A stretch of DNA of 30,949 bases from positions 1 to 30,949 of IMG/VR virus record IMGVR_UViG_3300047552_000734; one strand, given 5' to 3'. Source of the stretch: a virus. The position numbers and the translations under genes were made by a program. The notes beneath the pieces were generated by a model. It was given only the letters and a program-made list of their open reading frames with translations, searched no databases and was not told where the DNA came from. The number at the start of each line of letters is the position of its first letter. The first letter of the stretch is position 1. Shown in pieces: positions 2,638 through 30,000 of the stretch.

Positions 2638-3804
2638 ATGCCGCTGACCGACACGCAAATCCGCAACGCCAGGCCCCAAGACAAGCCTATCCAGCTAGTC
2701 GACGGGTTTGGGTTGTATCTCGAAGTCCGGCCCACGGGCGCCCGGCACTGGCGGATGCGCTACCGGCTGGATGGCAAGGAGTCTCGCATCTCCATCGGGC
2801 AGTACCCGCTCATGAGCCTCAAGGATGCGCGTGCTGAGCGTGAGCGCATACGAGCACTGCTGGCCGAGGGTATCAGCCCTATCGAGGAAAAACGGGCCGA
2901 GAAAGCCATCAGGCGCAAGCAGGCGCGGGACACGTTCGAGCAAATCGCCCGGGAGTGGCTGGACCGCCGGGCTGGCAAGTGGACGCCGTACTATCAGAAG
3001 GGTGTGCTGTCGTGCCTGGAGCAGAATGCGTTTCCGGCTATCGGCTCGCTCCCGATCCGGCGGGTGACTTCGGCGCACATCCTGTCAATCTTGCAGGCCA
3101 TGGAGGAACGTGGGGTCCACACGTATGCGATCCAGCTTCGGCAGTGGATCAGCGCCATTTTCCGGCATGCGATTGTCACGCTCCGGGCCGACGTTGACCC
3201 GGCGGCGCCATTGAAGGGTGCCATTGACCGGCCGGTGATCCAGCATGCCAGATGCCTATCGCGGGAAGAGATCGATGCTTTTCGGGAGGCTGTGGATGCT
3301 TACAAGGGCAACCGCACCACGGTCTTGGCTCTCAAGTTATTGCTCTACACCTTCGTCAGAACTATCGAGGCCAGGACGGCGCGGTGGGAGGATATTCAGG
3401 GCGGCTTGTGGGTTATCCCTGCGGGCCGGATGAAGATGCGGCGCACGCACTCTGTCCCACTATCAAAGCAGGCACGGGCGGTTATCGATGAGTTGCGGAC
3501 CATCACTGGCAGCAATCAATGGCTGTTCCCAGGGACCCGCGATCCCACGACCCACATGAGCGGGACCACGGTCAACCGGGCGCTGGAGTATATGGGTGTG
3601 GCTGCGACTGGGCATGACTTCCGGGCCACGGCGTCCACATGGCTGAACGAGATGGGCTTTCGGCTGGATGTGATCGAGCGGCAGTTAGCCCACGTCGAGG
3701 CCAATCAGACCCGTCGCGCATATAACCACGCTTTGTACCTGGATGAGCGGCGCGACATGATGCAGAAGTGGGCTGACTGGGTGGACTCAAGCTGCGCGGT
3801 TTAG
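2638..3804 (+). CDS. int: P4-type tyrosine integrase
   Basis: Site-specific recombinase for integration and excision of the phage genome. The N-terminus MPLTDTQIRNARPQDKPIQL is the DUF4102 arm-binding domain of P4-family integrases, which is why the ATG at 2638 is preferred to an upstream in-frame codon at 2590; neither has a strong Shine-Dalgarno. The central SAM-like DNA-binding domain follows, then the catalytic domain with Arg241 (TFVRTIEARTARW), His326 and Arg329 (GHDFRATAST), His352 (LAHVE) and the nucleophile Tyr362 (RRAYNH). At 388 residues it has the usual family length and all catalytic residues are present. Its 3' end overlaps the AlpA-type gene tail-to-tail by 18 bp. Confidence 0.95.
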   Translation: MPLTDTQIRNARPQDKPIQLVDGFGLYLEVRPTGARHWRMRYRLDGKESRISIGQYPLMSLKDARAERERIRALLAEGISPIEEKRAEKAIRRKQARDTFEQIAREWLDRRAGKWTPYYQKGVLSCLEQNAFPAIGSLPIRRVTSAHILSILQAMEERGVHTYAIQLRQWISAIFRHAIVTLRADVDPAAPLKGAIDRPVIQHARCLSREEIDAFREAVDAYKGNRTTVLALKLLLYTFVRTIEARTARWEDIQGGLWVIPAGRMKMRRTHSVPLSKQARAVIDELRTITGSNQWLFPGTRDPTTHMSGTTVNRALEYMGVAATGHDFRATASTWLNEMGFRLDVIERQLAHVEANQTRRAYNHALYLDERRDMMQKWADWVDSSCAV

Positions 3805-6581: not shown

Positions 6582-7289
6582 CTACCATGGGTAAATGCTA
6601 TGTCGTGAATTGTGCATTTCAATGCGCTCGACAAGAACCTGTGTTCTCGCCTCCTTTGTTGCAGGCAGATATGTCCCTTTCCATTTCTTGTCTATCCCGA
6701 TATTGCGGGCGACATTCGTAGAGTCGGCACTCGAGAAGGGCCACTCCGTATAAATCCTCGGATTCAACATTCGCAATCCGTGTAGCTTGCAGTTTGGCCT
6801 CCCATCTTCGTCGCAAATATGCGGCAGGACATCCATAAGACGCGCATTCAATTTGGCTACATTGGATGCGTCATATTCACCGCTACTGCCAAGCGCGACT
6901 AGGGGCCATTCGCGTGAAAGCCTAACCAACCTATCAATGGATTCATTTGTATGCCAAACGGCAGCGCCTTCATGCCGGTGGAATGGCCACTCACGCAAAA
7001 GCGCATCGTTATCTTCTTCTGAGCCTTCTATCACGTCTGGAATGACGGCAAAATCGAACCCTGGGTGACGCACCCACTTACCAACGTAAGCGTAATAATC
7101 CAGCCATTTAACGGGCTTTCCAGCTTTCCATAGCGAGAATGCACCGTTATCCAGCGCAAAGGATTGCGTACAGCCGGCCGCAACTTCCGTCTGGTCAGGG
7201 TGAGCAAAGCTGATGAAAGCATGCCGTCCAGTCCATGCGCGAACCGCGCATGTCTCTGGAGTGATCGGCCCGCCATGGTAGTGAATCAC
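6582..7289 (-). CDS. dpdA: DpdA-like 7-deazaguanine transglycosylase (TGT-fold DNA-modifying enzyme)
   Basis: 235 residues, GTG start overlapping the queD stop (GTGA). Motifs in order: FALDNGAFSLW with Asp47, FAVIPDVIEG with Asp85, VWHTNESIDRL, VALGSSGEY, LHGLRML and PFSSADSTNVARN with Asp189. This series fits the beta strands of the TGT/DpdA TIM-barrel superfamily, where acidic residues after strands bind the base and attack the glycosidic carbon. DpdA enzymes exchange guanine in DNA for a 7-deazaguanine such as preQ0, shielding phage DNA from host nucleases. It lacks the Cys/His zinc site of tRNA-guanine transglycosylases and is shorter, like phage short-form DpdA proteins. The adjacent queD strongly supports this role. 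The substrate base and sequence specificity are inferred, not seen. Confidence 0.72.
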   Translation of the reverse strand: MIHYHGGPITPETCAVRAWTGRHAFISFAHPDQTEVAAGCTQSFALDNGAFSLWKAGKPVKWLDYYAYVGKWVRHPGFDFAVIPDVIEGSEEDNDALLREWPFHRHEGAAVWHTNESIDRLVRLSREWPLVALGSSGEYDASNVAKLNARLMDVLPHICDEDGRPNCKLHGLRMLNPRIYTEWPFSSADSTNVARNIGIDKKWKGTYLPATKEARTQVLVERIEMHNSRHSIYPW

Positions 7290-10126: not shown

Positions 10127-10168
10127 ATGATGCGCTTGATGGGGCGTCAAGTCAATAGCATTGCTATT
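10127..10168 (-). promoter_or_regulatory. Leftward helicase promoter with operator palindrome
   Basis: Operator AATAGCATTGCTATT at 10154-10168. On the minus strand its right arm runs into a -35 box TTGACT (10150-10155), followed after exactly 17 bp by CATCAT (10127-10132, 4 of 6 to the -10 consensus). A bound repressor would cover the -35. The helicase ATG lies about 50 bases downstream. Confidence 0.65.
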
Positions 10169-10227
10169 CAGTTTGGTGCGCTTCTATGCCTTGCTATGCC
10201 TTCCGATTCATCCCGAATCATTGCCTT

Positions 10228-10281
10228 GGTGAAAACCCACCGGTACGCGGATCGATACAATCCGCGCCCGCTGTGCTTTCC
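10228..10281. repeat. Structured repeat, set 1 unit 1
   Basis: Stem 1 GGTG (10228-10231) with CACC (10238-10241) around AAAAAC-type loop; linker GGTA; stem 2 CGCGGA (10246-10251) with TCCGCG (10261-10266), loop ending CAA; tail CCCGC then TGTGCTTTCC. First of seven related elements, see 10341, 10457, 10577, 11850, 11966 and 12112. Confidence 0.8.
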
Positions 10282-10340
10282 ACTGTTTTTCAATCTAACC
10301 CAGCGCATTGCGCGTCACATCGATCTCTTGCTGCGCGATT

Positions 10341-10398
10341 GGTGGAAAACCCACCGGTATCCGGCACTGTCACCAATGCCGGACCCGCTTTGCTTTCC
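10341..10398. repeat. Structured repeat, set 1 unit 2
   Basis: Stem 1 GGTGG (10341-10345) with CCACC (10351-10355); linker GGTA; stem 2 TCCGGCA (10360-10366) with TGCCGGA (10377-10383), 10-base loop ending CCAA; tail CCCGCTTTGCTTTCC. Stem 2 differs in sequence from unit 1 yet pairs perfectly. Confidence 0.8.
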
Positions 10399-10456
10399 AG
10401 TGCCTGGCCTTGCTCATCCGTGCCTATCGTCGCGCTCCACTGCATATCAGTGCCCT

Positions 10457-10512
10457 GGTGAAAACCCACCGGGAGAGCGGCTGTCTCCAACCGCTAACCC
10501 GCTTTGCTTTCC
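10457..10512. repeat. Structured repeat, set 1 unit 3
   Basis: Stem 1 GGTG (10457-10460) with CACC (10467-10470); linker GGGAG; stem 2 AGCGG (10476-10480) with CCGCT (10491-10495), loop CTGTCTCCAA nearly the same as unit 2; tail AACCCGCTTTGCTTTCC. Confidence 0.8.
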
Positions 10513-10576
10513 AACTCAGTGCATATCCCTACACTGCAGCACTACGCCCATCGCGGCCGATCTATTCGCTCCGTTT

Positions 10577-10632
10577 GGCAGGAAAACCCACCGAAAGCGA
10601 CTCTCGAAAGAGCCGCTGACGCTTTGCTTTCC
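10577..10632. repeat. Structured repeat, set 1 unit 4 (divergent)
   Basis: Stem 1 is weak (GG..GG with CC..CC around AAAAC); stem 2 has AGC (10596-10598) with GCT (10615-10617) and an inner CTCT (10601-10604) with AGAG (10609-10612); tail GACGCTTTGCTTTCC. The segments between set 1 units (about 56-64 bp) are unlike one another in sequence but several carry their own short hairpin, for example CACTG/CAGTG near 10438-10452. Confidence 0.65.
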
Positions 10633-10697
10633 CTTTCGGTTCTGAGCACATCGGCTTGGCGCTATGCGCTGCACATACGAGCAGTGCCTGTATTCGC

Positions 10698-11201
10698 TTA
10701 CACGCCTGTCCGCACACCGGCCGGCATGCGCTGAGAGACGGCTGGCGGCTGATTGGCGGGGTTCACCCGGATGGGTGACTTGTCCTTAATGCTCTCCCGC
10801 TTGACGATGATTCTGGCCTGGACCTGATCGGCATCCCGCATGGTTTTGGTATCTGCCGGGGTGTTCTTGCTCAGGATCAAGGCCCGTTTCAACTTCTTGT
10901 CGGCGGATGACATATAGCTCTCGACCTGGGCCGCATTTTCACTCGGCAGGAGGATGCGGTAGTTGCCCTTGGTCTGCGCCAGATACTTGCCCTCGCGGAG
11001 CAAGATTTTCCTGACGTAATCCACCGCCGACAATTCTTGCATGCTCAGTTCCTGGAAGGTGACCATTGGGGCGACCTCCGGGACCTCGATACCGATCACG
11101 CTGCGGACGGCATCTGACGGGATGAATGCGCCATACTGATCCAGCTTATTGCGCCTGAAGTATTCCAGCAGTTCACGTGCTGGGTTCTTTTTGTCAGTCA
11201 T
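10698..11201 (-). CDS. Phage protein of unknown function, partner of the 199-residue gene
   Basis: 167 residues from the ATG at 11201, chosen because GGAG is 7 bases upstream and because it overlaps the preceding stop by 8 bp. It begins MTDKKNPARELLEYFRRNKL; the middle reads VRKILLREGKYLAQTKGNYR and ILLPSENAAQVESYM; the C-terminal 40 residues are basic and Pro-rich, probably disordered. No catalytic motif is visible. Together with 11194-11793 it forms a two-gene unit enclosed by two blocks of structured repeats. Confidence 0.75.
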   Translation of the reverse strand: MTDKKNPARELLEYFRRNKLDQYGAFIPSDAVRSVIGIEVPEVAPMVTFQELSMQELSAVDYVRKILLREGKYLAQTKGNYRILLPSENAAQVESYMSSADKKLKRALILSKNTPADTKTMRDADQVQARIIVKRESIKDKSPIRVNPANQPPAVSQRMPAGVRTGV

Positions 11202-11793
11202 GCGTGATCTCCGCTTGTGCGCGGCCGAAGGTCGGGCGGAAATCTCCGAACCCGCCATACATCGCGGCATGCTTGGCAATGTCTGACAGAGATTCTGCGT
11301 CGATCAGATTGTCGTCAAACTCGATGGCCGTTTTGAATGACCACTCATGAAATATCGGGGCCGCCTTGACCACGCGGACCTGGCCTTGCTTGAGGGTCAG
11401 ATTGATGCGGAAGTCAGGATTGCCGACGATATCCTCCGGAGTTTTGACCTTGTCTTTGTCACGGAACATGAGGGGGATTTTGTCCTCGGTGGCGAACACC
11501 GATCCACGCACATCAGCCTTGCTGACTTTGGCTTTCTTGAAGCTGGTCGCGGCAATGGCTGCCATCAGCCAACTGGAAGGCACGTAAATGCCGACACGGT
11601 CATCCCAGAAAATCTTGGCTCTGACCTCTATATCCTGCAGGTCCCGGTAATCCTCATCGGTGCGCCGGGTTTTCTTGGCGTTGATCTTCGCCATGGCCTT
11701 GGTAAAAGGGTTGAACCTGTCAACCGTCTGCGGATTGTTTTGCAGGAGCGGATTGATGCCGGTGACGGCGATGGTCATTTGTCGGATGGACAT
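11194..11793 (-). CDS. Conserved phage protein, possible RAMP-like fold
   Basis: 199 residues. It begins with MTIAVTGINPLLQNNPQTVD, has a central KKTRRTDEDYRDLQDIEVRA, GIYVPSSWLMAAI and VKAAPIFHEWSFKT, and ends YGGFGDFRPTFGRAQAEI. I recall this pattern (xGxxPLLxxN, then a Gly-rich GxGDxRPxFGRxxxE end) from uncharacterised phage and mobile-element proteins. The layout of beta-strand start plus C-terminal Gly-rich loop is reminiscent of RAMP-type RNA-binding folds; that is a guess from the pattern, not a detected homology. GGAA lies before the ATG. A leader of some 430 bases with three structured repeats precedes it. Confidence 0.75.
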   Translation of the reverse strand: MSIRQMTIAVTGINPLLQNNPQTVDRFNPFTKAMAKINAKKTRRTDEDYRDLQDIEVRAKIFWDDRVGIYVPSSWLMAAIAATSFKKAKVSKADVRGSVFATEDKIPLMFRDKDKVKTPEDIVGNPDFRINLTLKQGQVRVVKAAPIFHEWSFKTAIEFDDNLIDAESLSDIAKHAAMYGGFGDFRPTFGRAQAEITHD

Positions 11794-11849: not shown

Positions 11850-11897
11850 GAGGATTGACCCTCGGTTATCGCACTGATTGCCAATGCGATAACCGCG
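11850..11897. repeat. Structured repeat, set 2 unit A
   Basis: Stem 1 GAGG (11850-11853) with CCTC (11860-11863); stem 2 GTTATCGCA (11865-11873) with TGCGATAAC (11885-11893), 9 bp perfect, loop CTGATTGCCAA; tail CCGCG. Loop start CTG and end CCAA match set 1 units 2 and 3, linking both sets. Confidence 0.8.
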
Positions 11898-11965
11898 TTT
11901 CATTCAGATTCATTTCGGTGCTCCGCCTTACGTTTCGATGCGATGCGCCGCCTTACGCTGCGCTT

Positions 11966-12012
11966 GAGGACTGATCCTCGGCATTGCCCACTCAAAGAAT
12001 GAGCAACCCGCG
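11966..12012. repeat. Structured repeat, set 2 unit B
   Basis: Stem 1 GAGGA (11966-11970) with TCCTC (11975-11979), loop CTGA; linker GGCA; stem 2 TTGCCCA (11984-11990) with TGAGCAA (12000-12006), six of seven paired; tail CCCGCG. Confidence 0.8.
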
Positions 12013-12111
12013 ATTCATTCCCATTCGTTGCTATGCTCTGCGATTTGTTGCTGCGCAGTGCGACGCCTTAACTTGCCGTTCCTTGCGATGCGATGCCAGT
12101 CGATGCACCTT

Positions 12112-12159
12112 GGGGACCGTTCCCCGGTATTACCCACTCGCAAGAATGGGTAACCCGCG
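12112..12159. repeat. Structured repeat, set 2 unit C
   Basis: Stem 1 GGGGA (12112-12116) with TCCCC (12121-12125), loop CCGT; linker GGTA exactly as in set 1 units 1 and 2; stem 2 TTACCCA (12130-12136) with TGGGTAA (12147-12153); tail CCCGCG. Both stems show compensatory changes relative to unit B. The rest of the 11794-12276 gap contains no credible gene. Confidence 0.8.
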
Positions 12160-12232
12160 TATCGGTCAGGATCGATGCTGTGCGTAGCACGGCATTCCAC
12201 TGATTTCCGGTGCGTTGCAATCCAGAAAACAC

Positions 12233-12274
12233 ATTCTCTCACTGGCCGTGCCAGAAGTCAATAGCAATGCTATT
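12233..12274 (-). promoter_or_regulatory. Leftward promoter with operator, driving the repeat-bearing leader
   Basis: Operator AATAGCAATGCTATT at 12260-12274, starting 3 bp after the stop of the recombinase gene. On the minus strand it merges into TTGACT (12256-12261), then 17 bp, then GAGAAT (12233-12238, 4 of 6). Transcription would start near 12226 and cross the three set 2 repeats before reaching the gene at 11793, a leader of about 430 bases. Confidence 0.6.
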
Positions 12275-25549: not shown

Positions 25550-25848
25550 GCAATCCTGAACTATGGGCGCTCACCGAGCACTGCTGCCGACGCTGTTTTG
25601 GCCGGGTGTTGCGGCGCTATGTGGGTGGTCGTCACCAGGCCCTGTGTGCCGAATGCGGCCTGCAGGTCGATGGCTACCCGCGAGCCCTGTGCTGCTGCGG
25701 CGTCAAGATGGCCGATGGCAAAGACGCCGGACTTCGTTGTGTCCCGAACGACGACATCACTCCTGAAACCCCGCACCGCGTGTTGGTTCGTCATATCAGC
25801 ACGCTGCCGCATGATCCGCTGAAAAAGCATGAACCAACTCCGGATTGA
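25546..25848 (+). CDS. Second Cys-rich phage protein, possible regulator
   Basis: About 100 residues if started at CTG 25546, which overlaps the preceding stop in the same NTGA way as its neighbours; GTG at 25534 is an alternative start, and the frame is open further upstream. LTEHCCRRCFGRVLRRYVGG, ALCAECGLQVDGYPRALCCC and GLRCVPNDD contain many Cys (CCxxC, CxxC, CCC), so a zinc-binding fold is likely. Same type of small regulator as the gene before. Overlaps the methyltransferase start by 20 bp. Function unproven. Confidence 0.6.
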   Translation: MSNPELWALTEHCCRRCFGRVLRRYVGGRHQALCAECGLQVDGYPRALCCCGVKMADGKDAGLRCVPNDDITPETPHRVLVRHISTLPHDPLKKHEPTPD

Positions 25849-26995
25849 CTACCTGCCGCTGGATGGGCTGGTCCCGTATGAGCGGAATGCCAAACTGCAT
25901 CCGCAGGAGCAGGTTGAAAAAATTGCCAACTCGATCCGCGAGTTTGGCTTTAACGCCCCGATCATGCTGGATGACCGAAACGGCATCATTGCGGGTCATG
26001 GGCGGGCGATGGCGGCAAAACTGCTGGGTATCAAGCAAGTGCCCTGCGTGTACCTGTCGCATCTCTCCGACGTCCAGAAGCGGGCCTACATTCTGGCCGA
26101 CAATCGCACGGCGCAGTCGGATTGGTCGGTTGATCTGTTGTCGCTGGAACTGAAGGACCTCCAGTTCGAGGACTTTGACCTGAGTCTCACAGGGTTTGAC
26201 CCAGGCGAACTGGAAATGTACCTGACCGATCCGGAGCCGCCGGAGGAAGAAGGTGAGAAACCGTTTGACGAGCCCGAGGGTGAGCCGATCTCAATTCTCG
26301 GCGACATCTGGCAGTGCGGCCCGCATCGGATTGGCTGTGGTGATGCGGCCGATAGCACATTCATCGAAACGCTATTAGACAGAAGTCCGGTTGATCTGGT
26401 TTATTGCGATCCGCCCTATGGGATCGGCGAGGCCGCCGGGCGTAACAAGAGCCGGGGCAAGATAGCCAAGGCCAAAGACTACGGCAACGACGACTGGGAT
26501 AACCAGATTCCCTATGCCGCGATCCAGACCGCGCTGAGCCTGTCCAAGAACGTCGTGCTGTGGGGCGGCAACTACTTCGCCGACAAACTGCCGCCATCGT
26601 CCTGCTGGCTGGTGTGGGATAAGGAAAACGGTGCCAATGATTTCGCCGATTGCGAGTTGGCCTGGACTTCGTACCCCAGTGCCGTGCGCATGTTCCGGTT
26701 CCGCTGGGCCGGCATGCTCCAGGGCGACATGAAGAACAAGGAGGATCGGGTTCACCCGACGCAAAAGCCGGTAGCTCTGCATAAGTGGGCCTTCGAGACA
26801 TTGAAAGCGGGCGGGGTGGTGGTCGATCTCTTTGGAGGATCGGGAAGTAGTTTGATCGCCTGCGAGAAAACTGGCCGAGCGTGTTTCACGTGCGACATCA
26901 CGCCAAAGTACGTCGACGCTATGGTGCGGCGCTGGCAGGACGTGGCGGGAACCCACGCGGTGCATGCGGAAACGGGGGATGTGTTTCCGGGGTGA
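25829..26995 (+). CDS. ParB/Srx-domain fused to N4/N6-type DNA methyltransferase
   Basis: 388 residues. Residues 1-95 form a ParB-like nuclease/Srx domain: PLDGLVPYERNAKLHPQEQV, SIREFGFNAPIMLDDRNGII, AGHGRAMAAKLLGI and AYILADNRTAQ. From about 155 a methyltransferase: motif IV DPPYG at 194-198, HPTQKP 309-314 and motif I VDLFGGSGSS 332-341, so the order IV then I is that of beta-class adenine N6 or cytosine N4 enzymes. It methylates DNA, probably protecting phage DNA. Such ParB-MTase fusions are frequent in phages. No cognate nuclease nearby. Only a weak Shine-Dalgarno. Confidence 0.92.
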   Translation: MNQLRIDYLPLDGLVPYERNAKLHPQEQVEKIANSIREFGFNAPIMLDDRNGIIAGHGRAMAAKLLGIKQVPCVYLSHLSDVQKRAYILADNRTAQSDWSVDLLSLELKDLQFEDFDLSLTGFDPGELEMYLTDPEPPEEEGEKPFDEPEGEPISILGDIWQCGPHRIGCGDAADSTFIETLLDRSPVDLVYCDPPYGIGEAAGRNKSRGKIAKAKDYGNDDWDNQIPYAAIQTALSLSKNVVLWGGNYFADKLPPSSCWLVWDKENGANDFADCELAWTSYPSAVRMFRFRWAGMLQGDMKNKEDRVHPTQKPVALHKWAFETLKAGGVVVDLFGGSGSSLIACEKTGRACFTCDITPKYVDAMVRRWQDVAGTHAVHAETGDVFPG

Positions 26996-27045: not shown

Positions 27046-30000
27046 ATGTTCACACCCGCCGATCTCCGCTTTCCCCTCCTGCTGATCAAGTCCAAGAAGC
27101 TGTCTGATCAGCCTGGCATGGTCCTGATGGGTAATCCGCCCCGCTGGCACCAGATCAATCCTGGCGACGAGGCACCAAAGGACGTTCACCACGCCCTGTA
27201 CAAGAAAGGCGAGATCGCATCCGCGAAAAAACTTTCCAAAGACCCGGAGTTCACCAAACTCCATCCAGACGAGCAGGTCAAGAAAGTCCAGGAGCACGCC
27301 AAGGCGGTTCAGGACAAGAACACAGCCAGTTCCAAGGCCGCCACGTTTATCAAGAAGGTGATAAGCGGTCAGCCGCCACAGGCCGCCGAATGGAAGCACT
27401 GGATTGCGCAAAGCCGGGAAAAGCGTGCGGAGGATATTGCCAAGTTTGAGGCCGACCCGCAGGTCAAAGCCTACTGGGATCAGGCGGTATCGACCTTCAA
27501 GGCCAAGGCGGCGGCCAACATCGAGCGGCATAAGGCCGAGGACAATCAGTCGGACAAACCGGAGCCGGTGAAAGCCGCTGAACCCCAGAAGGAGCGGGCA
27601 GTTGATGCGGACAAAAAGGCGGACACGGTTGAACCGGTCAAGGCAAAAGAGTCAGGGATCAAACCGCTGGATCACGGCGAACTGAATGTTCCCGGCAAGA
27701 CCAACAAGATCAACGCGGAACTGGATAAGTACAAGGCGCAGCAGGCCAAGCAGGCCAAAGCCGACCAAAAGTCGGCGACCGTTGACAAAAAAGCCAACAA
27801 GGCCAAGGCCAAGGAATTATTTGCCGAGCACGGTCAGGCCATGATCGACCGGTACAGCAAGAAGTTCGGTAAAAAAGAAACGACCGACATGCTGGACGAT
27901 CTGGTCAAGTGGCAGTCGACCAAGTTCATCCTCATGGTTGATAAGTACCTGAAGGAACTAGAGGCGGAAAAGGCTGAATCAAAACAAGAGCCCGTTGCTG
28001 AGCCGGAAAAGGCCGAAGTCAAGCCAGAACCCGTCGCGGAATCCAAGCCGGCATCTGAGTCCGACGACGACTACGATGCCAAAATCCAGGAATACGCCAC
28101 GGGCGCGACCTACAAGCAAAAAGCCTACAAGCTGCTATCGCAAGACCCCGAATGGCTAAAGCTGTCCGGCAAGCCCAAGTTCGACGTATTGCACGCCAAG
28201 TACCTGGAGTTGCAGTCAGCCGCATCCCTGTCCGGAGCTATGGCCAAGTTTAAAACGGCGCTGTTGTCCGGCAAGGCGCCAACCAAAGCACTGGTCGAGA
28301 AGTTCAACTCACTGAGTAAGGAAGACCAGGCCAAGGTGCTCAAGCCGGTGTTCGAGCAGAAGGACAAGGCCGAGATTGGGAATCTTCTGGAGCAGTCAGG
28401 GGCCAAGCCGGTGGAAAAACCCAAAGCGGACAAGCCCAAACACACCTTCAAGATCAAGCCGCATGAGGGCGGATTCAAGCTCGAAAGCGATAACGGTGGT
28501 GGCTTTGTCGCCAACAAACCCAAAGGGGGCATGAGCCTGTTTGGTTTGCCGCCCAAGGTGTTCAAGACCGAAGCCGATGCCCAAGCCTATCTCGACAAGA
28601 AGGGTATGACGATGGATGCGGGAGAAAGCCCCAAGGTCGACGACAGTCCCAAGGATGGCGATACCAAACAGGGCGCCGATGGCCTGCTGGTGTTCAAGAA
28701 TGGGCGCTGGCACAAGCAGGGTGAGCCGGAAAAGGCTGGCGGCGACAAGGTCTACCTCAATGTGCCGTTCCAGAAAAAGGACTTTGCCAAGCAGGCCGGC
28801 GCCAAGTGGGATTCCGTAAAAAAGCTGTGGTATGCGCCAGAAGCCAAGCAAGGCATGGCTACCGATTACGGGGTGAAGATCAATCCCGGATTGACTCAGT
28901 TTATTCCCAAGGAAGTTGGACTGGTCAACCAAAAAGGCAACATCAACGCATCGGCGCTGGCGGAAAACCTGGCTATGTCCAGTGGCGAGCCGCATGAAAT
29001 TCATGCAGCCAAAAACCCAAAGACCGGAGCCATGGGCTATTACGTAGCCAAGACAGATGGCACGCCGGCTGAAACCGGTTACGACGTGCTGGGCAACTGG
29101 GAAAAGCAGGGGCCTGTGGACGGGGACGGAATCAAGCAGTCAAAGGCTGAAACCAAAAAAACCGAGGGCGAGAAGTACAAGGACGAGTTGGTTAATGCGG
29201 CCAAGACGGGTGATGGTGCGATCCCGTTGCCAAAAGGCGTGCTGGCTAAAAAGCCGGTTGGGCTGAAGGGCATCGCTGGGGTTATGGTCGAACAGATCGA
29301 GAACGCCCACAGCGTGGGTGATCAGGATGCGCTTAAAAACATCAAAGCGAACCTGTTCACGCCGGCCGATTCCACTGGCAAGATCATTTATTCCGGCACC
29401 AATAAAAAGGCTGTCGAGGCGTATCTGGATGCGGCGATTGAGGACTTGAGCGGCGAGAAAAAGCTCACCAAAAAAGCCGTGGAGGCGTTGGCCTATGAGT
29501 TGGGTAAAAAGGCGCATGCGGCGGGCTATGCGGTGCCGGTTTTCGATCCGGAACTGATGAACCTGATCAAGCAACTACCCGAGTATGGGTCTGTATCCAA
29601 GGCGGCGTACAAGGCGTGGCAGAAGGGTAGGATTGAGGCCATGGCTGCCGCACCGATTCCTGGATGGTCCGAGGACGAGAATGCCGCCTTCCAGCAGGCT
29701 GTTAATGGCAAGCAACCGGCTGAGCCACAGACCGAAATCCACCACGGCGCGGCCTGGGTTGCGGCACTGGCTGAGGGCAAGAAGCCTGACAATGACACCG
29801 ACAATGCGGTCGTCATAATGCCGGAGGAGCGGCAACAGGAACTGTTCACCAAAGCCGCTACCCTATGGGCCAAGGGCCAGAAACTGGATGCTGATGAGCA
29901 CGGCGTGGCGTTGGGCAAGGTGGTGCTGAGCGATGTCATGAATGACCGCGAGCATCAGGAAGGCGACACCAAGACCGTCAACGGTGTCACCTATATCCTG

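Follow-up and report, generated by a model that had tools for sequence, protein, structure and literature searches.

VIPR, first described in a 2026 preprint (PMC13142463), is a newly reported form of RNA guidance and a proposed precursor of CRISPR, of which very few systems have been studied. Its parts are a RAMP protein (Vipr), a vap gene and vrRNAs in which GGY/NN pentamers are followed by a structured 3' tail (PMC13142463). In the known systems a vrRNA holds 9-16 pentamers, in which a fixed triplet alternates with a free NN dinucleotide; non-GGY types follow 'a related consensus', and in the SUSP1 clade the 3' tail is a pseudoknot (PMC13142463). Vipr coats the vrRNA, the NN pairs recognise double-stranded DNA with one base skipped between them, and VIPR represses competing phages and satellites (PMC13142463).

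The window analysed here is the whole 30,949-nucleotide stretch of a phage record (IMG/VR record IMGVR_UViG_3300047552_000734). We are highly confident that it carries a phage-borne VIPR locus with seven guides, and that the tandem hairpins at 10228-10632 (Set 1) are the 3' tails of four of its vrRNAs. The vipr and vap genes sit between Set 1 and a second array (Set 2), and the functional strand of both arrays is the minus strand, the same as that of the genes. In the order in which they follow each other on that strand, the features are:

12233..12274, minus strand: sigma-70-like promoter candidate, TTGACT-17-GAGAAT with TG before the second hexamer; a consensus match, no more than chance expects
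12112..12223, minus strand: vrRNA v1 of Set 2; NN = TT AC CC AA GT AT GT AC CA TC CC; tail with pseudoknot GACCG x CGGTC
11966..12106, minus strand: vrRNA v2 of Set 2; 17 pentamers and tail
11850..11961, minus strand: vrRNA v3 of Set 2; NN = GC AG GC TC TC AC AG GA CC AT TC; tail
11194..11793, minus strand: vipr, 199 aa, phrog_4652; predicted RAMP/Cas7-like guide-RNA-binding protein
10698..11201, minus strand: vap, 167 aa counted from the ATG at 11201; small partner, predicted to be helix-turn-helix-like
10577..10672, minus strand: vrRNA u4 of Set 1; 8 clear pentamers (GCAGC GCATA GCGCC AAGCC GATGT GCTCA GAACC GAAAG; perhaps 5 more upstream, up to 13), then the pseudoknot tail 10634-10577; boundaries inferred
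10457..10572, minus strand: vrRNA u3 of Set 1; 12 pentamers, then tail; NN = GC TA CG GC GG TA CT GT GG AT CT TT
10341..10453, minus strand: vrRNA u2 of Set 1; 11 pentamers, then tail; NN = CT AT GT GC AC AG CG GA AG AG CT
10228..10336, minus strand: vrRNA u1 of Set 1; 11 pentamers, then tail; NN = CA AG TC GT GC AT CT TT TT AA GT
10155..10229, minus strand: eighth period-5 tract; no tail recognised; extends into the probable promoter/operator of the helicase gene

The earlier note had described four two-hairpin units at 10228-10632, and all four are present with their stems paired as claimed. Measured from the starts of GAAAACCCACCG (10231, 10345, 10460 and 10582), the units are spaced 114, 115 and 122 apart, which corrects the reported 113, 116 and 120. 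On the minus strand each unit consists of AAAGC-AAAGCGGG, then a long stem B, different in sequence from copy to copy, and then a short stem C whose loop is U-rich (GGTG-GGTTTT-CACC). The GGTA linker reported for units 1 and 2 was found in those two only; the tail end described as fixed is GCTTTGCTTTCC in units 2-4, but unit 1 has GCTGTGCTTTCC. Three further units of the same build, tract plus tail, lie at 11850-12223 and form Set 2. The minus strand had been proposed as the relevant one, and all seven units fold there (z = -3.9 to -6.7), with none of 200 shuffles folding as well for any unit. No Rfam covariance model matched the arrays, even with the threshold relaxed to E 5. That the block contains no believable gene also held, none of its open reading frames matching any phage protein family.

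Sequence variation with retained pairing had been ascribed to selection on RNA or cruciform structure. We counted stem B pairing in 33 units drawn from about 18 loci, with arms exchanged between units as a control; arms were curated by hand because the MAFFT alignment of the tails breaks across loci. Stem B paired at 98.7% of positions, compared with 45% for swapped arms, and most pair positions took all four Watson-Crick types; in the seven window units 100% of positions paired, and over both sets swapped arms gave 45-50%. The compensating changes are the product of selection on structure, and the two-hairpin units are selected as RNA. The cruciform half of the proposal is unnecessary, because tracts and tails are strand-specific and lie on the vipr strand.

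The stretch 5' of stem B and the loop of stem C are complementary (AAAGC x GCUUU or GUUUU, GACCG x CGGUC, GCGAU x AUCGC, AAAC x GUUU and CAAC x GUUG), and the tail is likely to carry a pseudoknot besides its two stems. The mean paired stretch was 3.87 compared with 3.33 after shuffling, a value reached by 0 of 5000 shuffles; we regard this test as supporting and not decisive, because the units were curated by eye. In single-strand folding the pseudoknot bases form an outer helix instead, the partners being identical in both models. The family comparison provides independent evidence for the tail pseudoknot.

The earlier note missed the pentamer tracts before the tails, which form the informative part of longer guide RNAs ending in the hairpins, as well as the eighth, tail-less tract, the identity of Set 2 as the same element and the two-gene VIPR system. 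Every tail is preceded by a period-5 tract, G(C/A)A-NN, some 11-17 pentamers long. Across the 81 pentamers of the window's seven tracts, position 1 is G in 91%, position 2 is C or A and position 3 is mostly A, also G, with positions 4 and 5 holding 0.00 and 0.06 bits. A strict tract filter did not call u1, because three of its pentamers begin with A. The triplet is GCA-like in the window, relaxed in Set 1, and GCA in relatives; by eye it is GGT-like in wV8 and GGC-like in the actinophages LittleE and MakoManhole. Because the preprint allows 'a related consensus' (PMC13142463), we read the GCA-like triplet as a variant scaffold and not as exclusion from VIPR.

Vipr of the window matched PDB entry 36pp, 'SUSP1 Vipr protein' (phmmer E 2.7e-23; profile E 2.1e-28), and over 192 residues it shares 30% identity with Vipr of wV8, another phage. 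The top Foldseek matches of its AlphaFold model (pLDDT 88.5) were RAMP subunits of the Csm3/Cas7 kind, type VII Cas7 among them. Vipr has a near-invariant GDxRPxxGR loop, and no Pfam match was obtained for it. The vap gene adjoins vipr in 15 of 15 aligned relatives and in every intact one. Its product is a distant match to that of the gene after vipr in wV8 (hhalign 91%, E 1.1e-6), and its predicted fold gave a weak HTH-like match. The Nop domain of the TIGR-Tas protein Tas was absent from the Pfam hits of either gene family. Early candidate readings, namely a repressor of SSB translation, TRAP-like repeats and RecT bound with 5 nt per monomer, were given up once the profile matched the solved Vipr.

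The SUSP1/wV8 VIPR (type II; PDB 36pp; PMC13142463) is likewise phage-borne, with a homologous Vipr, a partner gene directly after it, vrRNAs flanking the gene pair on both sides, period-5 repeats with free NN and a pseudoknot tail, and the parts stand in the same order here and in known VIPR (PMC13142463). From this architecture, namely vrRNAs on both sides and a small vap of DNA-binding type, we assign the window locus as type II-like among the seven VIPR types. The triplet, however, is GCA-like where SUSP1/wV8 VIPR has GGY/GGT, the guides number seven (3 upstream, 4 downstream) and not four (1 + 3), and the tail stems are unrelated in sequence to those of SUSP1/wV8. To the few VIPR systems studied, the locus adds one with seven guides, in which the repeat triplet differs and the tails are unrelated in sequence. 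With the class 1 CRISPR effectors (Csm3/Cas7, type VII Cas7) it shares the RAMP fold predicted for its RNA-binding subunit, and repeated subunits on a guide RNA would be expected here as well. In contrast to class 1 CRISPR, the locus is without identical repeats and spacers, no other cas genes were recognised near the locus, the period is 5 nt instead of 6 nt, and the guide information is scattered in dinucleotides.

Relatives of the 199-aa vipr gene have leaders with 1-6 tandem copies in the same arrangement and with unrelated stem sequences, and the same arrangement recurs in an independent phage (L044). Among 18 loci, 66 tracts lay within 900 nt of vipr-vap; elsewhere the same strand had 3 in 181 kb, and the opposite strand also had 3. 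Hits of a consensus-pattern scan (AAAGCGGG..CCGGTGGG) were used as background loci only. No vipr relative was found in 369 genomes of one bacterial class or among GTDB candidates. The vipr gene or gene pair is inverted relative to the surrounding tail genes in phiHSIC (L209 8001-8585) and LittleE (L210 3986-5148), and in this it behaves like a mobile moron. The locus also offers a recipe for searching raw sequence: a period-5 G phase, then a double hairpin, beside a phrog_4652 gene.

In the leader of T4 gene 32, a pseudoknot is joined to an unstructured repeat tract, and gp32 represses its own translation cooperatively. The arrays could likewise be mRNA leader elements through which Vipr or another phage single-strand-binding protein cooperatively represses its own translation. 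The design is similar, a pseudoknot being combined with unstructured repeats open to coating by a phage protein, and in most relatives the array lies directly upstream of vipr. Gene 32, however, has one leader, no variable guide positions and an unrelated protein, whereas four of the window's copies lie downstream of both genes and those of phiHSIC solely between vipr and vap. Fixed triplets alternating with free dinucleotides fit guides and not a uniform binding site, and in SUSP1 the vrRNAs exist as separate RNAs of ~100 nt and direct binding to DNA (PMC13142463). We consider it very unlikely that the arrays are leader elements, and autoregulation could coexist with a guide function.

Tandem pseudoknot RNA beside a ~200-aa protein in mobile DNA also recalls the type III toxin-antitoxin systems, in which such RNA neutralises an adjacent ribonuclease toxin such as ToxN. 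The protein here is a RAMP homologue without Pfam matches and not ToxN, the units differ in stem sequence where near-identical ones would be expected, and PADLOC returned no match, all of which makes a toxin-antitoxin locus barely conceivable. Folded DNA, that is, single-strand or cruciform recombination or replication sites of attC-like or REP-like kind, would be consistent with strong stems bearing compensating changes and with the isolated inverted vipr-vap cassette in the tail-gene regions of phiHSIC and LittleE, which does move. Such sites leave unexplained the strand specificity tied to vipr orientation, the free NN positions and the Vipr homologue, and no attC core was recognised; we attach next to no probability to them.

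As a VIPR locus, the window would be expected to work as described for SUSP1. By that analogy, the RNA would be produced in units of ~100 nt, each pentamer would hold about one Vipr subunit via the conserved triplet with the NN bases left free, and the tail would cap the complex. The NN pairs would then base-pair with one strand of double-stranded DNA, one target base being skipped between pairs, and the seven guides would specify seven different DNA sites. Binding, with Vap helping, would repress genes of rival phages or of other mobile elements, as in SUSP1 VIPR. RNA-guided repression of rivals is the function that we infer for the window locus.

Targets were sought with guides decoded as NN x NN x NN (one-skip rule). 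Five guide cores were searched in IMG/VR and one in GTDB genomes, two full guides in 399 genomes with <=2 mismatches, all family guides against the fetched loci with skips of 0-2, and the guides against the window itself. No window guide had a full-length one-skip match in the IMG/VR and GTDB core searches, the 399 genomes or the fetched loci. Core matches in IMG/VR numbered 5 for u3, 8 for u2, 16 for v3, 5 for v1 and 46 for u1. The best extension of u1 (20/22; L268, L275, L303) lay antisense in phage helicases coding AFNKSIATEL, and that of v3 (21/22) in an hsdM gene (L227), both within chance given the hits tried. Under the one-skip rule u1 reads antisense TFNKSIATELC, near the helicase motif AFNKSIATEL; its hits fall on FNKSIATEL-type motifs, and those of v3 on common EIGSLVEEA-type motifs, other proteins included. 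Because conserved protein motifs inflate the u1 and v3 hits, no target is claimed. A v2 match of 23/34 at window position 27077 was outside the wobble frame and was set aside. At the u1 site the window's own neighbouring helicase codes AFNRSIADEL, with 13/22 bases matched. A relaxed-GCA VIPR lineage with guides aimed at rival-phage genes homologous to the phage's own replication genes, its own helicase differing as if to avoid self-targeting, is a tentative reading, which we judge unlikely.

Two near-identical 15-bp palindromes each overlap a minus-strand TTGACT promoter-like site. The one at 10154-10168 (AATAGCATTGCTATT) is upstream of the helicase gene; the other, at 12260-12274 (AATAGCAATGCTATT), overlaps the promoter-like site at 12233..12274, upstream of Set 2 and the vipr operon. 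Both are probably operators of one repressor, either a phage repressor or Vap. A 90.1 kb contig (IMGVR_UViG_3300042988_000510; window-containing segments L257 1-20000 and L258 9065-20000) covers essentially all of the window, circularly permuted and at 99.9-100% identity, and the window is therefore probably a 31 kb fragment of a phage genome of ~90 kb. Elsewhere in the window, a queuine tRNA-ribosyltransferase-like gene (6582-7289, minus strand, phrog_887) possibly serves deazaguanine modification of phage DNA, and a ParB-like domain is fused to a DNA methyltransferase at 25829-26995 (plus strand, phrog_498).

Two of the related loci (L206 6001-6297 and L207 3516-3812) have a vipr truncated after about 42 homologous residues and keep two vrRNA units upstream; they can be read either as a decaying VIPR locus or as one that keeps guides only. 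At actinophage vipr loci, hairpins between GGCNN tracts resemble tRNA acceptor/T-arm minihelices (GGTTCGACTCC, GGTTCGAGTCC). These tRNA-like hairpins lie at L212 1653-1695, about 2985-3030 and 3103-3143 in Gordonia phage MakoManhole and at L210 5346-5392 in Mycobacterium phage LittleE. ARAGORN called no tRNA at them, and the actinophage tails are perhaps tRNA-like and processed by tRNA enzymes.
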